Translations under genes and position numbers: made by a program | Shown here: positions 16,841 to 25,790 of the stretch, one piece after another | Layout of the letters: each line of letters starts with the position of its first letter | Position numbering within the stretch: the first letter of the stretch is position 1 | Assembly: GCA_013697245.1 (NCBI GenBank) | Contig: JACCXH010000044.1 | Coordinates: 62,001-126,000, forward strand | Source of the DNA: Bacteroidota bacterium | GTDB taxonomy: Bacteria > Bacteroidota > Bacteroidia > B-17B0 > Aurantibacillaceae | DNA length: 64,000 nucleotides | Direction: 5' to 3' | The notes under the pieces: model-generated | Databases searched by the model: none | The model's input: only the letters and a program-made list of their open reading frames with translations | What the model was told of the DNA's origin: nothing

Positions 16841-17821
16841 GTGAACAATTATCAATCATTCCTCGATCTTTTTTTAAAACATTTAGAAGAATACCGCTCA
16901 CATTTAAATTCTAAATCGCCCAAAGAACTTTACGAACCAGAGAATTATATTTTATCGCTTGGCGGAAAGAGATTGCGCCCTCTATTAGCTTTAATTGCTT
17001 GCGACCTTTTTGATAAAGACCCAAAATTGGCGCTTAACTCAGCGCTTTCGGTAGAACTCTTTCATAATTTTTCACTCATTCACGATGACATTTTAGATGC
17101 TGCACCATTGCGCAGAAATAAAGAGACTGTGCATGAAAAATGGAATACCAATATTGCTATTTTAAGTGGCGATGTGATGCTGGTAAAAGCAAAACAGGTT
17201 TTAGAACATTACGATTTTAAAGAGTTTAAAAAACTAAATATTCTTATAAATAAAACCGCCATCGAAGTCTGCGAAGGCCAACAACACGACATGAATTTTG
17301 AGAGCATGGATAATGTTCATGTAACTAATTACATTGATATGATCACCAACAAAACGGCTGTGTTATTGGGTTGCAGCTTAAAAATGGGTGCCATTAACGC
17401 CAATGCAAAAGAGGAAGATCAAACTAATTTATATGCGTTTGGAAAACATCTAGGTGTTGCTTTTCAATTAATGGATGATCTTTTAGACGCTTTTGCAACA
17501 GATCAAAAAAAATTCGGTAAACAAATTGGCGGGGATATTATGGCAAACAAAAAAACATTTTTATTTTTAAAGGCACAAGAATTAGCATCAGAAAAACAAA
17601 ATAAAGAGTTGTTGAAACTGATGAAAACAAAAGACCCTCAAAAAAAAGTAGAAGGTGTTTTAACTATTTACGATACCTTGAACATAAAAAAAATATGCCA
17701 ACAAGAAGCAGATGTGCACACCTTACAGGCCATAGATTTTTTAAATAAAGTAAATGGCAACGCTTCTAAAAAAGAAAATTTAAAAAAATACGCTAAAGAA
17801 CTTTTAAATCGACAGGCTTAA
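16841..17821 (+). CDS. Polyprenyl diphosphate synthase
   Basis: This 326-residue trans-isoprenyl diphosphate synthase condenses isopentenyl diphosphate onto an allylic primer in the cytosol. The first Asp-rich motif is LIHDDILDAAPLRR (DDxxD) and the second is FQLMDDLLDAF; GGKRLRPLL lies near the N-terminus. A Phe sits five residues before the first DDxxD, a position where aromatic residues limit the product to about C15-C20. That is an inference from family rules; a longer quinone side-chain product is less likely but not excluded. The start is a GTG nine bases after the rfbA stop. The gene overlaps the thioesterase gene by one base (TAATG), which suggests translational coupling. Confidence 0.93.
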   Translation: MNNYQSFLDLFLKHLEEYRSHLNSKSPKELYEPENYILSLGGKRLRPLLALIACDLFDKDPKLALNSALSVELFHNFSLIHDDILDAAPLRRNKETVHEKWNTNIAILSGDVMLVKAKQVLEHYDFKEFKKLNILINKTAIEVCEGQQHDMNFESMDNVHVTNYIDMITNKTAVLLGCSLKMGAINANAKEEDQTNLYAFGKHLGVAFQLMDDLLDAFATDQKKFGKQIGGDIMANKKTFLFLKAQELASEKQNKELLKLMKTKDPQKKVEGVLTIYDTLNIKKICQQEADVHTLQAIDFLNKVNGNASKKENLKKYAKELLNRQA

Positions 17822-18985: not shown

Positions 18986-20512
18986 TTAAAGATCATCCAG
19001 ATCAACAATATACAGCATTTTTCCGCCAAAAAAATAGATCTTGTTTTTCATGACAATACTTTGCTCCACTAAATTTAATGTGGCCAATAATTCAAAATTT
19101 TTATTAATAACGTAAGTGTTCTTATAGTTAAAAATAACAGTTTTATCTTTGTAAACTTTATCGCGCTTAAATAATTCGGTATAATGGTATTCGTATTGCA
19201 CATCTACTTTATCTACACCATACACTTTGTTATTCTCTGTTTTAAAATAAACCACGTTATCATTAATAAAATTTAAAGGCACATAATAGCCTTCTTTTTC
19301 AACAAAATATTCGTCACCATTAATGAATTCTACAAAACGGCCGTACTTATGGTCATCAAGCGGGATAAGGTTCTCAAAAGATTCGTTATTAGAGTTTGTT
19401 TGAATGATGTTTTTTTTATCTGCCAGCAAATACGATTGTTTTTGTGGTAAAAAATCAATTAAACTTTCGGAAGAAGTAAATTTACTTTGAGAATTGATCT
19501 TCCCGGTTGCCCCGTCAATATTCATTACAAATGGTTTGCCATAAAGCACATAATTGTCTTTAAACTGGCTTAAACCTAAATTAATTAAGGTAATTGCCGA
19601 ACCACTTTTTGTTAAGATCATTTTTGAGATTGGTAATTCTTTCAGGTCTAACTCCCACAATAATTCGCCGGTGGCTTTTACAGCAATGATCTTTTCTTTA
19701 CTACCAAAATAAATAACATCGCCGTCAATTAAAATATTTGAACCTAAATGGGTGAGCAAATTATCTTCTTTAGTAGTTTTATACGACGCATTTACTTTTT
19801 GAACGTTGCTTTTATTTACCACTGAATAAACAAGTGACTTTTGATTTTTCTCAGCTGTAACAAGTGCATGCGACCATATTAAACCGGTATTAATGTTAAT
19901 GGCATGCAAACCATTTGCCGCAATTATGATGGTTGTATCGTTCAAATATTTTACATCCATCCAATCTTCTTTATGAGATATACTGGCAGACCAATTTACC
20001 GTACCATTTAATAAACTAATACAGGTTAACTCGTCCGGCTTTTTAGGATCTTCATACGTTAAGCCGGAACTGTTTCTAGGAATAGCGTAAACAACCCTAT
20101 CCTTAAAATCATACACTTCAAACCCATGTTTTTTATCGTAACGGCTTGTTTTTGCATCATTCGAAAAAAGTAAAAAATCTCCTGTAAGGTTAAGATCAAA
20201 GCGTAAACTTTCGTATAACCAGTTTATAGAATCTGTTGCGCAATTTAAACCGGCAATAAATCCTTTATTAATATATAACCTACCGGAAGGGTCTTTTTTA
20301 CGCGTTGAAAATATTAATTGGTTAGACGCCGTATCCGACTGATAATCGTATAAAGGTGAACTAAGACTGTACGTTTTAGCCGTTATGGTTTTAATGCTTG
20401 TTGCCGAAATACCAAGGTCTTTTACAAACGACTTATAATAATTCATTTGTGTTTGCCCTAAAACCGTAAAGGTTAAACAAACAAAGAGTGAAAAAATAAA
20501 GAAGTATTTCAT
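18986..20512 (-). CDS. Exported PQQ-like beta-propeller protein of unknown function
   Basis: This 508-residue protein has a signal peptide (MKYFFIFSLFVCLTFTVLGQ). The repeated pattern of a short strand, Gly and Trp (NCATDSINWLYES, SLLNGTVNWSAS, NINTGLIWSHA, KATGELLWELD, NIDGATGKINSQ) marks WD-like or PQQ-like propeller blades. No enzyme motif is seen. It follows the HAMP-SpoIIE phosphatase by 17 bases on the same strand and is most likely the last gene of that operon. It may therefore act in the same envelope signalling path, for example as a periplasmic ligand sensor or scaffold. That role is inference from position only. Confidence 0.75.
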   Translation of the reverse strand: MKYFFIFSLFVCLTFTVLGQTQMNYYKSFVKDLGISATSIKTITAKTYSLSSPLYDYQSDTASNQLIFSTRKKDPSGRLYINKGFIAGLNCATDSINWLYESLRFDLNLTGDFLLFSNDAKTSRYDKKHGFEVYDFKDRVVYAIPRNSSGLTYEDPKKPDELTCISLLNGTVNWSASISHKEDWMDVKYLNDTTIIIAANGLHAININTGLIWSHALVTAEKNQKSLVYSVVNKSNVQKVNASYKTTKEDNLLTHLGSNILIDGDVIYFGSKEKIIAVKATGELLWELDLKELPISKMILTKSGSAITLINLGLSQFKDNYVLYGKPFVMNIDGATGKINSQSKFTSSESLIDFLPQKQSYLLADKKNIIQTNSNNESFENLIPLDDHKYGRFVEFINGDEYFVEKEGYYVPLNFINDNVVYFKTENNKVYGVDKVDVQYEYHYTELFKRDKVYKDKTVIFNYKNTYVINKNFELLATLNLVEQSIVMKNKIYFFGGKMLYIVDLDDL

Positions 20513-20529
20513 ATAAATATTTTAAAAAA

Positions 20530-22311
20530 TTAAACTTTTAATCCAATGATCAACACGTCATCTACCTGCTCAAGGTCACCCTGCCAATCGGCTAATGTTT
20601 TATCAAGGAAATCTATTTGTTCTTTAACAGGTTTAATAGTAATCTGTGTGAGTAGTTTTCTAAAATTACCTACCATAAATTTTTTGCCTCTTGGTCCGCC
20701 AAATTGATCAGCATAACCATCACTAAAAATAAAGATCTGGTCGTTCTTTTGTAATTGAATGGTGATGTTATCAAAGTTTTGTTTTTCACCAATAAAAGCC
20801 CCAATAGGAAATTTATTCGCTCTGTGTTCTGTCAATTCGCCATTCCTTACCAAGTAAAGTGGGTTGTAGGCGGCGGCATATTGCAATTCTAAGGTATCGT
20901 AATTAATGCAGCACAAAGTAATATCCATACCATCTTTAGACTGCGTGCCTTTATTGCTTACGTGCAAAGTATTAATTACCCCTTCTCTTAATTTATCAAG
21001 GATCTCTGATGGCTTAATAACATCTGTATTACTAATAATATCTTTTAAAATATTATGTCCTACTAAACTCATAAATGCTCCGGGAACACCATGTCCGGTG
21101 CAATCTACGGCGGCAAAATACGTGAGGTTATTTTTTCTTTCCAACCAATAGAAATCGCCGCTAACAATATCTTTGGGTTTAAACAATACAAAAGAGTTTG
21201 GTAAAAACTGGTTAATGATACTATCGGGTGGTAATATAGCTTGCTGAATGCGTTTCGCGTAATGAATACTATCTGTTACTTGTTTGTAAAGTATTTCAAG
21301 CTCCTCATTTTTATTTTCGATCTCTGATTTTTGACGCACAACCTCTTCAGTACGCTCCATTACTTTACGCTCGAGACTTCTTTCATTCTCCGCAAGATCA
21401 TCCCTCATTTTTAATAAGGCATGGCCCAAACTATCATCCTTACTTAAAGGTTTGTAGTTCGCATCAAATTTACCGGCTCCGGTTTCTTTCGCAAATTTAG
21501 TTGTTTGCTCCATCGACTGTATCAATTCATTCAATGCAATTCCCATCTCTCCTACTTCATCGCTACGTGTTTGAATACGCTCTTTTGGCAAAATACCAAG
21601 GCCCATAGACAGTAACATTTTTTTAAGTACTTGTATTGGTTTGGTAATTGAGCGTGTTGTGTATAAAGCAATTAATAATCCACCAATTACAAGTGTAATA
21701 CCTAAGGCCTGAACAAATCCTTTTAAGAATTTAAAAGAATCAAACATTTCATCCTTTACCTTTTCTGCGGCTTCCTGCTTAAAAGCGATCAATGAATTAA
21801 GATTACGATAAATGGTTTTAATGTTTACCTCAGAGTCTTCATAAGGTAAACGCGCCATCATATAAATGTTTGGATCTTCGTATGCTTCAGCAGAATTTAA
21901 TTGACCTATGATCTCGTTTTGATATACTTTAAATAAAGTTTCAACACGTCCAAAAATCACTCTTAGCTGAGTTTTTTCATCGGGTGACCAGGTTTGAGAC
22001 AATGCCTGCAACAATTTTTTTTGTTCAGGATATTCTTTACGAATAATATTTTTTAATTCATCTCTGAACTCAATATCATTAAAACTTTTATTGTAAAACC
22101 ATTTTGAAACATTTGTATGCGAACGCTGTAATAAAAGGTTTAATTCCTTTAACTCGGCCACGCTTGGCGTAACCTGGCCCACCACGGTTTCGGTTTGTCT
22201 TTTGCTGTCGTTTAAAGTAAGAACCGTTAAAATAAAGGCTACCATTGTTAAAACAATAAATGAGCCAAATCCTAATCCAATTTTTCTTCCTATCGTGAAT
22301 CTAATTGCCAT
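20530..22311 (-). CDS. Membrane SpoIIE-family serine/threonine phosphatase with HAMP domain
   Basis: The 593 residues run in order: a membrane segment (about 11-33), a periplasmic four-helix-bundle-like sensor region (about 35-190), a second membrane segment (LGITLVIGGLLIALYTTRSI, about 201-220), a HAMP domain with RSITKPIQVLKKM, a coiled coil rich in Glu and Lys (about 300-345), and a C-terminal PP2C/SpoIIE phosphatase domain. The last contains DIVSGDFYW, AAVDCTGHGVPGAFMS, IFSDGYADQFGG and VDDVLIIG, which include the metal-binding Asp residues. This class dephosphorylates Ser/Thr on partner proteins. The start shares one base with the stop of the TPR gene (TAATG). The layout resembles SiaA of Pseudomonas, but the adjacent proteins are YfiR-like and TPR rather than SiaBCD. 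Confidence 0.9.
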   Translation of the reverse strand: MAIRFTIGRKIGLGFGSFIVLTMVAFILTVLTLNDSKRQTETVVGQVTPSVAELKELNLLLQRSHTNVSKWFYNKSFNDIEFRDELKNIIRKEYPEQKKLLQALSQTWSPDEKTQLRVIFGRVETLFKVYQNEIIGQLNSAEAYEDPNIYMMARLPYEDSEVNIKTIYRNLNSLIAFKQEAAEKVKDEMFDSFKFLKGFVQALGITLVIGGLLIALYTTRSITKPIQVLKKMLLSMGLGILPKERIQTRSDEVGEMGIALNELIQSMEQTTKFAKETGAGKFDANYKPLSKDDSLGHALLKMRDDLAENERSLERKVMERTEEVVRQKSEIENKNEELEILYKQVTDSIHYAKRIQQAILPPDSIINQFLPNSFVLFKPKDIVSGDFYWLERKNNLTYFAAVDCTGHGVPGAFMSLVGHNILKDIISNTDVIKPSEILDKLREGVINTLHVSNKGTQSKDGMDITLCCINYDTLELQYAAAYNPLYLVRNGELTEHRANKFPIGAFIGEKQNFDNITIQLQKNDQIFIFSDGYADQFGGPRGKKFMVGNFRKLLTQITIKPVKEQIDFLDKTLADWQGDLEQVDDVLIIGLKV

Positions 22312-23213
22312 TAGTCTATTTTAATATTTAACTCTTTACATTTCTTTTTAAACTCTTCTTCCTTCGCTTTATCGTTTAGCATTTTATAAATACTATGAAG
22401 CGCTTCCACCGCTTTTACGTTCTTATTATCAACCTTATAAACCTTAATAATAAATTGCTCGGCTTGTTTAGCCAATTTAATGATGTTTTCCTGCACTACA
22501 TCTATTTGCGAGAAATCGGCCCCGTAATCTAATCCCTTACCAAGATTAACTGCCTGGTTATAATACATGATACCTAGATTAATATTTGCCGAAGGATTTT
22601 CAGGTTGCATATCCAACACTTTTAACAAGGCTAATTTTGCAACATCCTGCGCAGCAATATTTTTATTATCCTTATTAAAAATATCAGAATACAAACTGCC
22701 AACTGCTAAATAATATTCAATATCCCTTGCCGTAAAACTTGTGCCCGGTTCTGCCAGTAAAAAATTTTCTTTAAACTTGTTGTAAGCAATAAGACTGTGC
22801 TTGTAATTGATAGAATCCATCAACAATACTTTAGAAAGGTTAAAATAACCTGCGGCAATATTTGAAAGTAATTTTTTGTTGTTTCCTGCAAATGTCTCGT
22901 CAGGCTTTAAGCTGTTTGAAGTTTTTAAAGAAGAAATAATGGTATCACGTAAGTTAGAGTTTAATTTTAGTTTATCGGTACGTTTGTAAATTTCAAAATA
23001 AATATATGCGCGGGTGGTCCAACTCACAAAATCTGCTTTGGTTTCCGGATGAACAATAACACTATCTATGGCCAATTTGGCCATGTCGGCGTTCTTTGAT
23101 TGCAGTAATTGTTGGGCTCGGTTAAGCTTATCATTCTGCGCAAAACCATTTATAACACATAGCATTAAAATGCTATAGGTTAAGGTTTTTATTATGTAGC
23201 GCCATTTGCTCAT
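22311..23213 (-). CDS. Exported TPR-like protein
   Basis: This 300-residue protein has an N-terminal signal or anchor (TLTYSILMLCVINGFAQ) and an all-helical body with TPR-like pairs, for example LNRAQQLLQSKNADMAKLAIDS and NPSANINLGIMYYNQAVNLG. No catalytic motif is visible. It lies 17 bases after the YfiR-like gene and its stop overlaps the start of the SpoIIE phosphatase, so the three are very likely co-translated. A scaffold role in the periplasm between the YfiR-like protein and the sensor region of the phosphatase is a reasonable hypothesis. Confidence 0.75.
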   Translation of the reverse strand: MSKWRYIIKTLTYSILMLCVINGFAQNDKLNRAQQLLQSKNADMAKLAIDSVIVHPETKADFVSWTTRAYIYFEIYKRTDKLKLNSNLRDTIISSLKTSNSLKPDETFAGNNKKLLSNIAAGYFNLSKVLLMDSINYKHSLIAYNKFKENFLLAEPGTSFTARDIEYYLAVGSLYSDIFNKDNKNIAAQDVAKLALLKVLDMQPENPSANINLGIMYYNQAVNLGKGLDYGADFSQIDVVQENIIKLAKQAEQFIIKVYKVDNKNVKAVEALHSIYKMLNDKAKEEEFKKKCKELNIKID

Positions 23214-23230
23214 TTTAATTTTTTTTAATT

Positions 23231-23758
23231 TTACTCAACATTAATTGCCAGTGCTTTAAAATCATCATTTGTTTTTAGGCCCGCTTTTACCGCGTTATTT
23301 TTATTATACTCAAATTTTAATTTATTATCGATTACTACAAAATTTATACTCGAACCTGTTTTACAAGCATTCGGACTTTCAGCAACAACCAACGTACCTT
23401 TGGCTTTACTTTTTGCAGAAACATCCGGCACTGATTTTGAAACATCGGGTAATAGAAAAACTATTTGCGCTGAAACAGCCGCATCGAACACATAAGAATT
23501 TTTAACTTCGATATCCTGGTTACCAACCTTTTTTTTGCTGGCTAGCGTTTTTAATTCGGTAATAAGGTTTTCGTTTTTACCAACCACGTAAATAACAAAA
23601 TTTCCCTCCTTTTTTTTATCCGACCACTCAAAATAGCGTGTAAAGTTGTAAAGGAAAACCGCTTTGATCTTTGCGTTGGTATCATAGTTAGACGGCTGTT
23701 GAAATCTAAACGAGATAACACAAAATAATAGTACCCAATATTTGAAATTTTTGCCCAG
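23231..23758 (-). CDS. YfiR-like (DUF4154) periplasmic protein, apparent CTG start
   Basis: The C-terminal part has the YfiR/DUF4154 signature GSSINFVVIDNKLKFEYN followed by NNAVKAGLK. Translating upstream of the first GTG (23587) in the same frame yields the missing family N-terminus, NAKIKAVFLYNFTRYFEWS, preceded by a hydrophobic signal peptide. No ATG, GTG or TTG exists in that upstream part. The best start is CTG at 23758, giving MGKNFKYWVLLFCVISFRF and 175 residues, a normal family length. An ATT at 23788 is the other option. A TATATTTG -7-like box lies 26 bases before the CTG. YfiR proteins are periplasmic repressors of membrane signalling enzymes, which fits the downstream HAMP phosphatase. 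A sequencing error hiding an ATG cannot be excluded. Confidence 0.8.
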   Translation of the reverse strand: MGKNFKYWVLLFCVISFRFQQPSNYDTNAKIKAVFLYNFTRYFEWSDKKKEGNFVIYVVGKNENLITELKTLASKKKVGNQDIEVKNSYVFDAAVSAQIVFLLPDVSKSVPDVSAKSKAKGTLVVAESPNACKTGSSINFVVIDNKLKFEYNKNNAVKAGLKTNDDFKALAINVE

Positions 23759-23791: not shown

Positions 23792-23854
23792 ATGCTTGGT
23801 TTTTAAAAGCTTTTATTGTTATTTTCATATTTTAGTCTTAAAATCGTATTACAA

Positions 23855-24442
23855 TTGAGTTCCACCAACAAATACAGCAGTTACTCTGATAACGACCTAA
23901 TTAACACTTTTTTAGAGAAAGATGATAATAATATCGTTGGTATCCTGTATGAACGCTACGGACATCTGGTTTTAGGTTTATGCATAAAATACCTAAAAAA
24001 CAAGGATGAGGCGCAAGATGCAGTCATTCAAATATTTACCGGCCTAATGAAAGACCTGAAAAAGCACAAAATTGAGTTCTTTAAAAGCTGGCTTTACGTA
24101 TATAGTAAGAATTTTTGCCTTATGGAGTTGCGCAAAAGGCAAAGTATGCTTAAGAAAGAGCTTGAATTAAAAGAAAATGTTCATTTAATTATGGATTTTT
24201 CCAATCCTGAGCATCTCAATGAAAAAGAGAAGCAAATTGTGATTATGGAAAAGGCTATTGAATTGTTGAATGTTGAGCAGAAAAAATGTATCGACCTCTT
24301 TTATTTAAAGAACAAATCCTACATTGAAATAGTTGATATGACAGGTTACACGGCCAATGAAGTAAAAAGTCATATACAAAATGGCAAAAGAAATTTAAAA
24401 TTAAAAATGGAAATATTAATTAATGAAGACCCCAATAAATAA
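23855..24442 (+). CDS. ECF-type RNA polymerase sigma factor
   Basis: The protein has region 2 features (ILYERYGHLVLGLCIKYLKNKDEAQDAVIQIF) and a region 4 helix-turn-helix (IELLNVEQKKCIDLFYLKNKSYIEIVDMTGYTANEVKSHIQNGKRNLK), the pattern of ECF sigma-70 factors. There is no ATG at the front. A TTG at 23855 gives 195 residues beginning SSTNKYSSYSDNDLI, typical for the family; a TTG at 23816 would add 13 hydrophobic residues. The last 20 bases overlap the start of the anti-sigma-like gene, so the two are coupled. It is divergent from the YfiR operon and may share its regulatory region. The regulon is unknown. Confidence 0.9.
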   Translation: MSSTNKYSSYSDNDLINTFLEKDDNNIVGILYERYGHLVLGLCIKYLKNKDEAQDAVIQIFTGLMKDLKKHKIEFFKSWLYVYSKNFCLMELRKRQSMLKKELELKENVHLIMDFSNPEHLNEKEKQIVIMEKAIELLNVEQKKCIDLFYLKNKSYIEIVDMTGYTANEVKSHIQNGKRNLKLKMEILINEDPNK

Positions 24443-25790
24443 CGATAATTTAGATCAACTTTTTAATAAAGCGAAAGCGGATAAACAAAGTTTAGATGAC
24501 TTTGAAAAAGATGCTTTGGCCGGTTTTGATATGTTGGGTTCTGAAAAAGAAGCTGCCAACCTAAAAGCATCTTTAGATACCCGCATTAAAAAAGAATTAT
24601 TTGAAAAAGAAGAAGAAAAAAATCCTAAAATATATTGGTGGGCTGCCGCAGGCTTAATTTTAGTTGTAGGCTTAAGCGTACTTTTTGTTATGAATAATAA
24701 CGATTCGGTTAATAAAGCACATGATCTTGCTATAAAAAACACTGTACAAGAAAGCGATAAGAGTGTTTTACCAGATAGTAAAAAGGAATTAAAAGAACAG
24801 GAACTTGTCCCACCAATAGAAGCTGCAACTATTACCGATGAAAAAAGGCCGGTTGTAAAAGATGCAGAGCCATTAAAAACCGGGAAGTTGGAAGAAAAAG
24901 ATCTTGCAGAAAAAAAGCAAACAACCGATTTTGCAAAAGTTGCTAAAGAAGAACCAAAATCAAGAATGATCATTCCCTCCACCACAAAGATGGGGCCTAC
25001 TGATATCAACAAAGTTGAAAAAGAAAATTTTGACAGAAAAAAAGATGTGTCGAGTATTGGGAACGGCGTTGCTTCTAAAAATGCAACTACCGGTGGTTTA
25101 AATGATCTTTCAAAAAACTCAAAAGATACAGAAGGCGAAGAATTTAAATCAGTTGCAAAAAAAGCAGCCGATCAAAATCAAAAATTAGCGCAATCTGAAG
25201 TTGCTTCTAATGATGAGATCGCCTATGGTGGAAAATCAGCAGAAAAAACAAAAAGCGAGGAAAGAAATGCGGACAACGATGCGGAAAAAAACATCAATCA
25301 ACCTGTTGCAACCAGCAAAAATAATAGTGCTAATAACCGGAACGAAGAAAAAGCGGATAAAAAAGCGAAGAGGGCAAGTAACAAACAAAGTTCTGCAGGG
25401 ATAGTAGGAGAGAGCGATGACTATAAACCCGGCACAACAAATTCTACACCTAAAGGAGTTGTAACTATGGAAACCACCACTGCTGCAATACCCGCAGAGC
25501 CTCAAAAAGAAAGCGCTGTAAATTTTTATTATACCGGTGGAGAAACAGCCCTTACGAGTGACCTTAAAGAAAAATTAAAAGGAAAAGACCTTAACCAAAA
25601 ATTTGACGCTACTGTTTTTGTTACAGAAAAAAAGGTTGTAGAAAAAGTAGACTATATAAATTCTTACGATCTTACCGCAAAACAAAAAGAGGATCTAACT
25701 AAAATTTTAAAGAGTTTAACTAAGTTTAATTTCTTAATATGCCCTGCTACAAAAAGTTTGTTTCCTTATAAGATTCTGTATAGGCCGTAA
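24423..25790 (+). CDS. Anti-sigma-like single-pass membrane protein with long charged periplasmic region
   Basis: The 455 residues have an acidic/basic cytosolic N-terminus (1-66; DQLFNKAKADKQSLDDFEKDALAGFDML), one membrane helix (YWWAAAGLILVVGLSVLFVM, about 69-88), and a long low-complexity region rich in Lys, Glu, Asn, Ser and Ala (90-355). The C-terminal domain of about 95 residues (NFYYTGGETALTSDL to LFPYKILYRP) looks folded. The gene overlaps the sigma factor gene by 20 bases. That context and the single membrane pass suggest an anti-sigma factor whose periplasmic part senses the signal, but no canonical zinc or ASD motif is seen. Confidence 0.65.
   Translation: MKTPINNDNLDQLFNKAKADKQSLDDFEKDALAGFDMLGSEKEAANLKASLDTRIKKELFEKEEEKNPKIYWWAAAGLILVVGLSVLFVMNNNDSVNKAHDLAIKNTVQESDKSVLPDSKKELKEQELVPPIEAATITDEKRPVVKDAEPLKTGKLEEKDLAEKKQTTDFAKVAKEEPKSRMIIPSTTKMGPTDINKVEKENFDRKKDVSSIGNGVASKNATTGGLNDLSKNSKDTEGEEFKSVAKKAADQNQKLAQSEVASNDEIAYGGKSAEKTKSEERNADNDAEKNINQPVATSKNNSANNRNEEKADKKAKRASNKQSSAGIVGESDDYKPGTTNSTPKGVVTMETTTAAIPAEPQKESAVNFYYTGGETALTSDLKEKLKGKDLNQKFDATVFVTEKKVVEKVDYINSYDLTAKQKEDLTKILKSLTKFNFLICPATKSLFPYKILYRP

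Follow-up and report, generated by a model that had tools for sequence, protein, structure and literature searches.

In Pseudomonas aeruginosa, the exported protein YfiR represses the membrane protein YfiN directly, as indicated by genetics and co-immunoprecipitation (PMC3375315); this YfiBNR system places an exported YfiR-family protein beside a two-helix HAMP membrane receptor with a cytosolic enzyme, and modular YfiR-YfiN[PAS] systems with swapped outputs, namely GGDEF-EAL, HPT and histidine kinase, have already been described (Malone et al. 2012, PMC3375315). The SiaABCD system of the same species relies on a membrane HAMP-PP2C phosphatase and a SiaB-SiaC pair (PMC7647112, PMC12834913). 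In Bacteroidia, YfiR-family genes are also found directly before membrane sensors that are CHASE8-HAMP histidine kinases, the arrangement nearest to YfiN. We describe here a locus to be set beside these three, from a Bacteroidota bacterium of the family Aurantibacillaceae (assembly GCA_013697245.1, contig JACCXH010000044.1, positions 62,001 to 126,000; this whole stretch of 64,000 nucleotides is called the window). It is an operon in which genes for a YfiR-like protein, a TPR-like protein and a membrane phosphatase, together called the trio, are followed by an optional gene for a propeller-like protein. Our reading, to which we give a probability of roughly 60%, is that YfiR and the TPR protein gate the receptor phosphatase, which would act on a SiaB/SiaC-type partner switch; the contact, its sign and the substrate are parts of this reading that we infer.

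The four genes (Table 1) are separated by 17, −1 and 17 bases in the order yfiR-TPR-phosphatase-propeller, and an earlier, sequence-only reading of positions 18986-23758 had their order, strand and spacing right. It had also named the first product a YfiR-like (DUF4154) protein, which is borne out by PF13689 (92.4 bits, E 3.6e-26, cut-off 24.9); no other DUF4154 match in its own genome exceeds the cut-off. Its profile matches the P. aeruginosa YfiR structures weakly (E 0.008), and the NCBIfam YfiR equivalog model gives 18.1 bits, below the cut-off of 85. For the second product, Pfam TPR matches are sub-threshold (E 0.03) and no Pfam family exceeds its cut-off, whereas profile matches to TPR proteins of the PDB and an all-helical model (12 helices in a solenoid, predicted local distance difference test (pLDDT) score 90.6) speak for the TPR assignment; the best Foldseek matches of the model are TPR superhelices, with template-modelling (TM) scores that are low (mostly 0.18-0.43, by either length, among the matches listed), and we draw nothing more than the repeat class from them. 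In the phosphatase, SpoIIE (67 bits) and the periplasmic sensor (4HB_MCP_1, 30.2 bits, cut-off 27) stand above the Pfam cut-offs and HAMP falls just under its own (24.1 bits, cut-off 25); CHASE8 was not found in this protein by Pfam, which reports the four-helix (4HB) family instead. The beta-propeller proposed for the last product comes down to a weak, sub-threshold PQQ_2 match (21.5 bits, cut-off 27.6). Export of the YfiR-like, TPR and propeller-like proteins was judged by eye from their N-termini.

Table 1. Positions in the window of the operon, of its predicted domains and signals, and of the divergent neighbour.
Feature	Position	Strand	Basis
yfiR-like gene (DUF4154), putatively exported, 175 aa	23231..23758	-	PF13689
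Gene for TPR-like alpha-solenoid protein, putatively exported, 300 aa	22311..23213	-	Model, profile and fold matches
Gene for 4HB sensor-HAMP-SpoIIE/PP2C membrane phosphatase, 593 aa	20530..22311	-	Pfam
Predicted periplasmic four-helix sensor, about residues 36-195	21727..22206	-	4HB_MCP_1 over residues 5-188; model helices
PP2C catalytic domain, residues 397-592	20536..21123	-	SpoIIE, 67 bits
Gene for propeller-like protein, putatively exported, optional fourth gene	18986..20512	-	PQQ_2 below cut-off
Putative CTG start codon of yfiR	23756..23758	-	Orthologous CTG across the genus
TATATTTG, putative promoter -7-like box, 25 nt upstream of the yfiR start codon	23784..23791	-	TAnnTTTG kept in the genus
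Divergent extracytoplasmic-function (ECF) sigma factor gene, neighbour, not core	23816..24442	+	sigma70-ECF, 77 bits

The first evidence that these genes belong together comes from their conservation. A first survey of 60 genomes, own genome among them, was searched with the TPR protein and gave matches in 42 (own genome included); a TPR profile was then run on 158 genomes of the class Bacteroidia, again including the own genome, and matched 68 of them. Forty-six of these matches are strong (E < 1e-50) and come from 21 families; 45 span nearly the whole model and one (G143) covers positions 88-297. One has to keep in mind that the frequency of the trio depends strongly on the sample, as some families have it often and many others do not have it at all: a draw from the whole phylum gave a strong TPR match in 2/198 genomes, versus 46/158 in the class draw. 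Besides the window, 79 strong-TPR loci were compiled, one of which (L055) duplicates another (L044) and was counted once, leaving 78 distinct loci, 35 in the genus of the window (L036 was assigned to it by similarity) and 43 outside; weak or partial TPR matches (L053, L158, L159, L160) were left out of these counts. At all 77 testable loci, yfiR immediately precedes the TPR gene on the same strand (L066 starts at the contig end), and at 77/78 the phosphatase, by its sensor part, lies directly downstream. The catalytic domain is seen at 74 loci, with L045, L136 and L145 running off the contig, and the largest gaps between the TPR and phosphatase genes, measured between stop-to-stop frames, are 380, 168 and 145 bases. 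The order found in the window is thus more than chance, being kept at nearly all 78 other loci. Conservation of this order in related genomes was a test on which the sequence-only reading had staked its proposal, and the order is indeed kept, the yfiR-TPR-phosphatase arrangement being intact everywhere except at L047 and at L066, which is cut at the contig end. By these comparisons, the first three genes are a conserved unit inherited as one. The same cannot be said of the propeller-like gene, which that reading had counted in the unit and which occurs in only part of one genus: it is present at 22/35 genus loci and at 0/43 loci outside (the profile was built from genus members, and a few contigs end before its place), and we therefore rejected it as a core part.

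The second line of evidence comes from proteins in which a YfiR domain and a phosphatase are joined. DUF4154 is present in 62/158 class genomes, and among its reading frames, 12 reach at least 500 aa, in 11 of the 158 genomes; all were fetched. Ten of the 12 carry a PP2C domain by profile (nine in a single frame, L201 in two pieces), and Pfam confirmed DUF4154 together with SpoIIE in 6/6 fusions submitted; of the remaining two, one (L194) ends in a class III nucleotide cyclase and the other (L202) in a PAS-GAF histidine kinase. Every one of the 12 has a 19-residue stretch of mean hydropathy 2.3-3.4 between the YfiR and output domains (coiled coils in these frames were judged by eye), so that YfiR and SpoIIE also occur as one transmembrane polypeptide. 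The fusions are a second, independent line of evidence that SpoIIE phosphatases come under the control of YfiR domains, and because of these fusions and of the kept gene order, control of the phosphatase by YfiR is well supported as far as sequence comparison goes. Of the gating by YfiR, TPR and propeller proteins that had been proposed, the tie between YfiR and the phosphatase therefore stands (order kept at 78 loci with a single exception, and fusions), and the propeller drops out.

It could be argued that YfiR and the TPR protein are clients or assembly factors, held in the trio by co-regulation, while the phosphatase would respond to the membrane or to a ligand of its own. P. aeruginosa SiaA has been proposed to sense membrane perturbation via its own N-terminal region (PMC12834913), and a contact of YfiR or TPR with the sensor is indeed something that we infer only. 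Fusions at 10 loci and a strict order over many families are, however, hard to fit with co-regulation alone, and YfiR of Pseudomonas represses YfiN directly (PMC3375315); we regard this explanation as quite improbable and retain gating by YfiR and TPR.

The long frames also include some unusual architectures. The YfiR-class III nucleotide cyclase chain (L194:6392-8194) lies directly behind a YfiR-SpoIIE fusion gene, and the YfiR-PAS-GAF histidine kinase (L202:5192-8407, 1072 aa) is followed by response-regulator-like frames. Two shorter proteins of 240-247 aa (L203:5285-6004, L209:4516-5256) carry the YfiR domain in their C-terminal half, with N-termini that look lipoprotein-like by eye. Outside the trio and the fusions, 15 YfiR loci were compiled, and a CHASE8-HAMP histidine kinase is adjacent at 6 of the 10 that were given to Pfam.

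How does the trio compare with the described systems? Unlike YfiBNR, its receptor has a 4HB sensor and not PAS or CHASE8, its output is SpoIIE/PP2C instead of a diguanylate cyclase, and a TPR protein is present; no Pfam match to the OmpA-type lipoprotein YfiB turned up in the operon genes, to which this search was confined. The comparison with YfiN made in the sequence-only reading holds in that a YfiR-family protein does sit beside a HAMP receptor, and is looser than claimed in that the 4HB sensor is not the usual CHASE8 or PAS. GGDEF domains were found in 0/60 genomes, 42 of them TPR-positive, and in 8/14 control genomes, the other class genomes not having been searched; because of this there is no diguanylate cyclase in those 60 for YfiR to act on, and we rejected such an action for the genomes searched. 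SiaABCD differs in turn, as it has neither YfiR nor TPR, whereas the window system lacks SiaD (again by GGDEF in 0/60 genomes) and has neither siaB nor siaC in its operon. The window phosphatase also fails the NCBIfam SiaA equivalog cut-off (208.8 bits versus 700, with only residues 264-592 matched), though its architecture fits, and the nearest solved structure of its catalytic domain is the PP2C domain of SiaA (6k4e, profile E 9.6e-54, Foldseek TM-score normalized by target length (TMt) 0.87). The YfiR-associated kinases of Bacteroidia differ from the window system by their histidine kinase output and CHASE8 sensor. Since the defining features of both fail, the trio is neither YfiBNR nor SiaABCD; it works like a YfiNR-type, YfiR-gated receptor joined to a SiaA-like phosphatase. 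The words “SpoIIE”, “tetratricopeptide” and “Bacteroid” are absent from the main text of PMC3375315, whose outputs are listed in its Table S4, outside that scan, and among the best-ranked open-access literature matches, judged by title and start of the abstract, none describes YfiR with SpoIIE or the trio.

The phosphatase itself indicates which of its halves goes with YfiR and TPR in the genus. In 27 aligned phosphatases, GDFY, D403, TGHGVPGA, D531-G532, DQFGG and D584-D585 are invariant. Identity to the window phosphatase was then computed half by half on 74 phosphatases, the sensor half being the first 345 residues. At three genus loci (L042, L043, L068), identity to the window is 67-68% in the sensor half and only 42-43% in the catalytic half, whereas the catalytic half is 61-91% identical at the other 32 genus loci. 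This natural domain swap shows, for the genus only, that the output could be exchanged and the input half nevertheless remain with YfiR and TPR.

These swaps bear on a different view of the output, in which YfiR and TPR still gate the phosphatase and the substrate is another regulator, for example a partner of the divergent ECF sigma factor. Partner switches that control sigma factors are the classical targets of SpoIIE phosphatases. The sigma gene is divergent and within 150 bp at 27/33 genus loci with enough contig, and it is missing at all three catalytic-swap loci versus 3/30 unswapped ones; L042 and L043 are, however, close relatives, so that the swap-and-loss pattern amounts to about two events. 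Outside the genus, the sigma gene is adjacent at 3/43 loci (one from the same family but a different genus, two from other families) and was not found adjacent at the other 40 (L157 has no upstream contig). On this balance, we consider a sigma-directed output unlikely and keep a SiaB/SiaC-type switch as the preferred one. As to the neighbour itself, the start of the window sigma gene is apparently a TTG near 23855 and not 23816, and positions 23816-25790 hold the ECF sigma gene and a gene for a long product that seems to have a single membrane helix and, judged by eye, resembles an anti-sigma factor.

The SiaB/SiaC side of our reading rests on co-occurrence and on a few gene neighborhoods. SiaC is present in 93/158 class genomes, that is in 46/46 TPR genomes versus 47/112 others (Fisher p 5e-14, kinship uncorrected), and in 9/16 class genomes with DUF4154 and no TPR protein. 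Two genomes, G085 and G135, have one SiaC each and only three SpoIIE matches, the trio's among them, and a profile search of the stretches around siaC gave no PP2C domain (9 kb each in G035, G085 and G135, 10 kb in G119, 8 kb in G161). In one family (L049, L136, L141), a SiaB-SiaC pair sits outside the operon of the trio, about 3-4 kb upstream; at the fourth trio of this family (L148), the contig extends only 3.6 kb upstream. Such pairs are a likeness to SiaABCD in related trio genomes: a SiaB-like gene adjoins siaC at 14/15 siaC loci inspected, seven of these 14 genes having been picked by eye and then used to build the profile, and one SiaB-like gene was confirmed by Pfam PF19788 and a match to 6kko_A. 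The exception is L192, where siaC begins 10 bp past the stop codon of a YfiR-SpoIIE fusion. The NTSS stretch is kept in the one Bacteroidia SiaC that was aligned to the solved structure, and its threonine corresponds by count, one extra chain residue being allowed, to T68, which is phosphorylated in SiaC (PMC7647112).

Several observations weigh against our reading and explain why we do not rate it higher. The own genome G000 (4.4 Mb) has 55 SpoIIE domains and 7 SiaC genes, and 8/9 of the other SpoIIE domains tested there (out of 54) also match the SiaA model; SiaA-likeness was thus rejected as proof of a SiaC substrate. Because of these numbers and of the widespread SiaA-likeness, SiaC may be the partner of other phosphatases, and its co-occurrence with the trio possibly reflects SpoIIE richness only. 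SiaC near the trio is seen only in the one family mentioned above, outside the operon. The fusions show pairing of YfiR with SpoIIE, not with the trio's 4HB sensor, Pfam finding neither 4HB nor TPR in them. Outside the genus, the sensor half is 35-62% identical and the catalytic half 44-64%, the sensor being in general less conserved, so that strict conservation of the input half is limited to the genus. One trio (L047) is without its phosphatase, and the overall confidence of the phosphatase model is low (pLDDT 71). That YfiR and TPR touch the sensor, the sign of their effect, the part played by the TPR protein and the identity of the substrate are, finally, proposed elements of the mechanism.

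Finding the initiation codon of yfiR was not straightforward, as no ATG, GTG or TTG opens the full window frame; position 23758, where the sequence-only reading ended the gene, is in a CTG codon, which the comparison with relatives favours as the start. At this fixed position, CTG is found at 28/34 genus loci, plus the window, the others having ATT (2), TTG (2), ATA (1) and ATG (1, L048). TAnnTTTG, which we take to be the Bacteroidota -7 consensus element, lies 13-31 nt upstream of the yfiR start at 33/33 genus loci with a called start. An alternative ATG, GTG or TTG start was rejected, as 32 of these 33 loci have no in-frame ATG from the upstream stop to residue 30, and the lone one (L037) sits upstream of the promoter box; coding just upstream of the CTG is also disfavoured by one-base length differences there among relatives (by eye). 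In comparison, an ATG is found near the start of the TPR (31/34), PP2C (34/35), propeller (22/22), thioesterase (20/20), rmlA (19/19), ABC (18/18) and TDO (17/17) genes assessed. It is rare for the prenyl synthase (2/20, mostly GTG) and sigma (2/27, mostly TTG by eye) genes, so that weak start codons are not unique to yfiR, an idea we rejected; of the gene families compared, yfiR alone shows CTG as an apparent start. The polyprenyl synthase gene (window 16841-17821) has GTG at 17/18 genus loci without a nearby ATG and TTG at the other. One of the five changes in a compensatory YfiR allele of P. aeruginosa is L1M, which the authors labelled as an improved start codon (PMC3375315); this implies that yfiR also starts with a non-ATG codon there. 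Considering the conserved CTG and this allele, it is plausible that a weak start codon limits the amount of YfiR repressor.

Put together, the mechanism would run as follows. The exported YfiR-type and TPR proteins would jointly act on the periplasmic four-helix sensor of the HAMP phosphatase and so set its activity, with repression as the default sign; low YfiR dosage would be set by the weak start codon. The cytosolic SiaA-like PP2C domain would dephosphorylate a SiaC-type phosphoprotein, a SiaB-type kinase would phosphorylate it, and this partner switch would run in genomes without diguanylate cyclases. A wider version remains tentative, and we put it short of an even chance: YfiR would quite generally be the periplasmic gate of partner switches driven by phosphatases, acting with TPR on a 4HB receptor in Bacteroidia free of cyclic di-GMP (c-di-GMP) and, independently, fused into one transmembrane chain, with SiaA-like phosphatases switching SiaB/SiaC and the repressor dose limited by a conserved CTG on a nearly leaderless transcript.

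YfiR-type proteins have been studied as brakes on c-di-GMP synthesis. That they occur in the trio, in genomes where no diguanylate cyclase was detected, suggests a coupling of this brake module to Ser/Thr phosphatase signalling and a different route by which envelope signals may enter the cell. The trio is a candidate upstream input for a very large SpoIIE repertoire (the 55 domains of the own genome), and the role of SiaB and SiaC outside c-di-GMP signalling becomes directly testable, with the conserved CTG start as a clean handle on dosage control by initiation strength.

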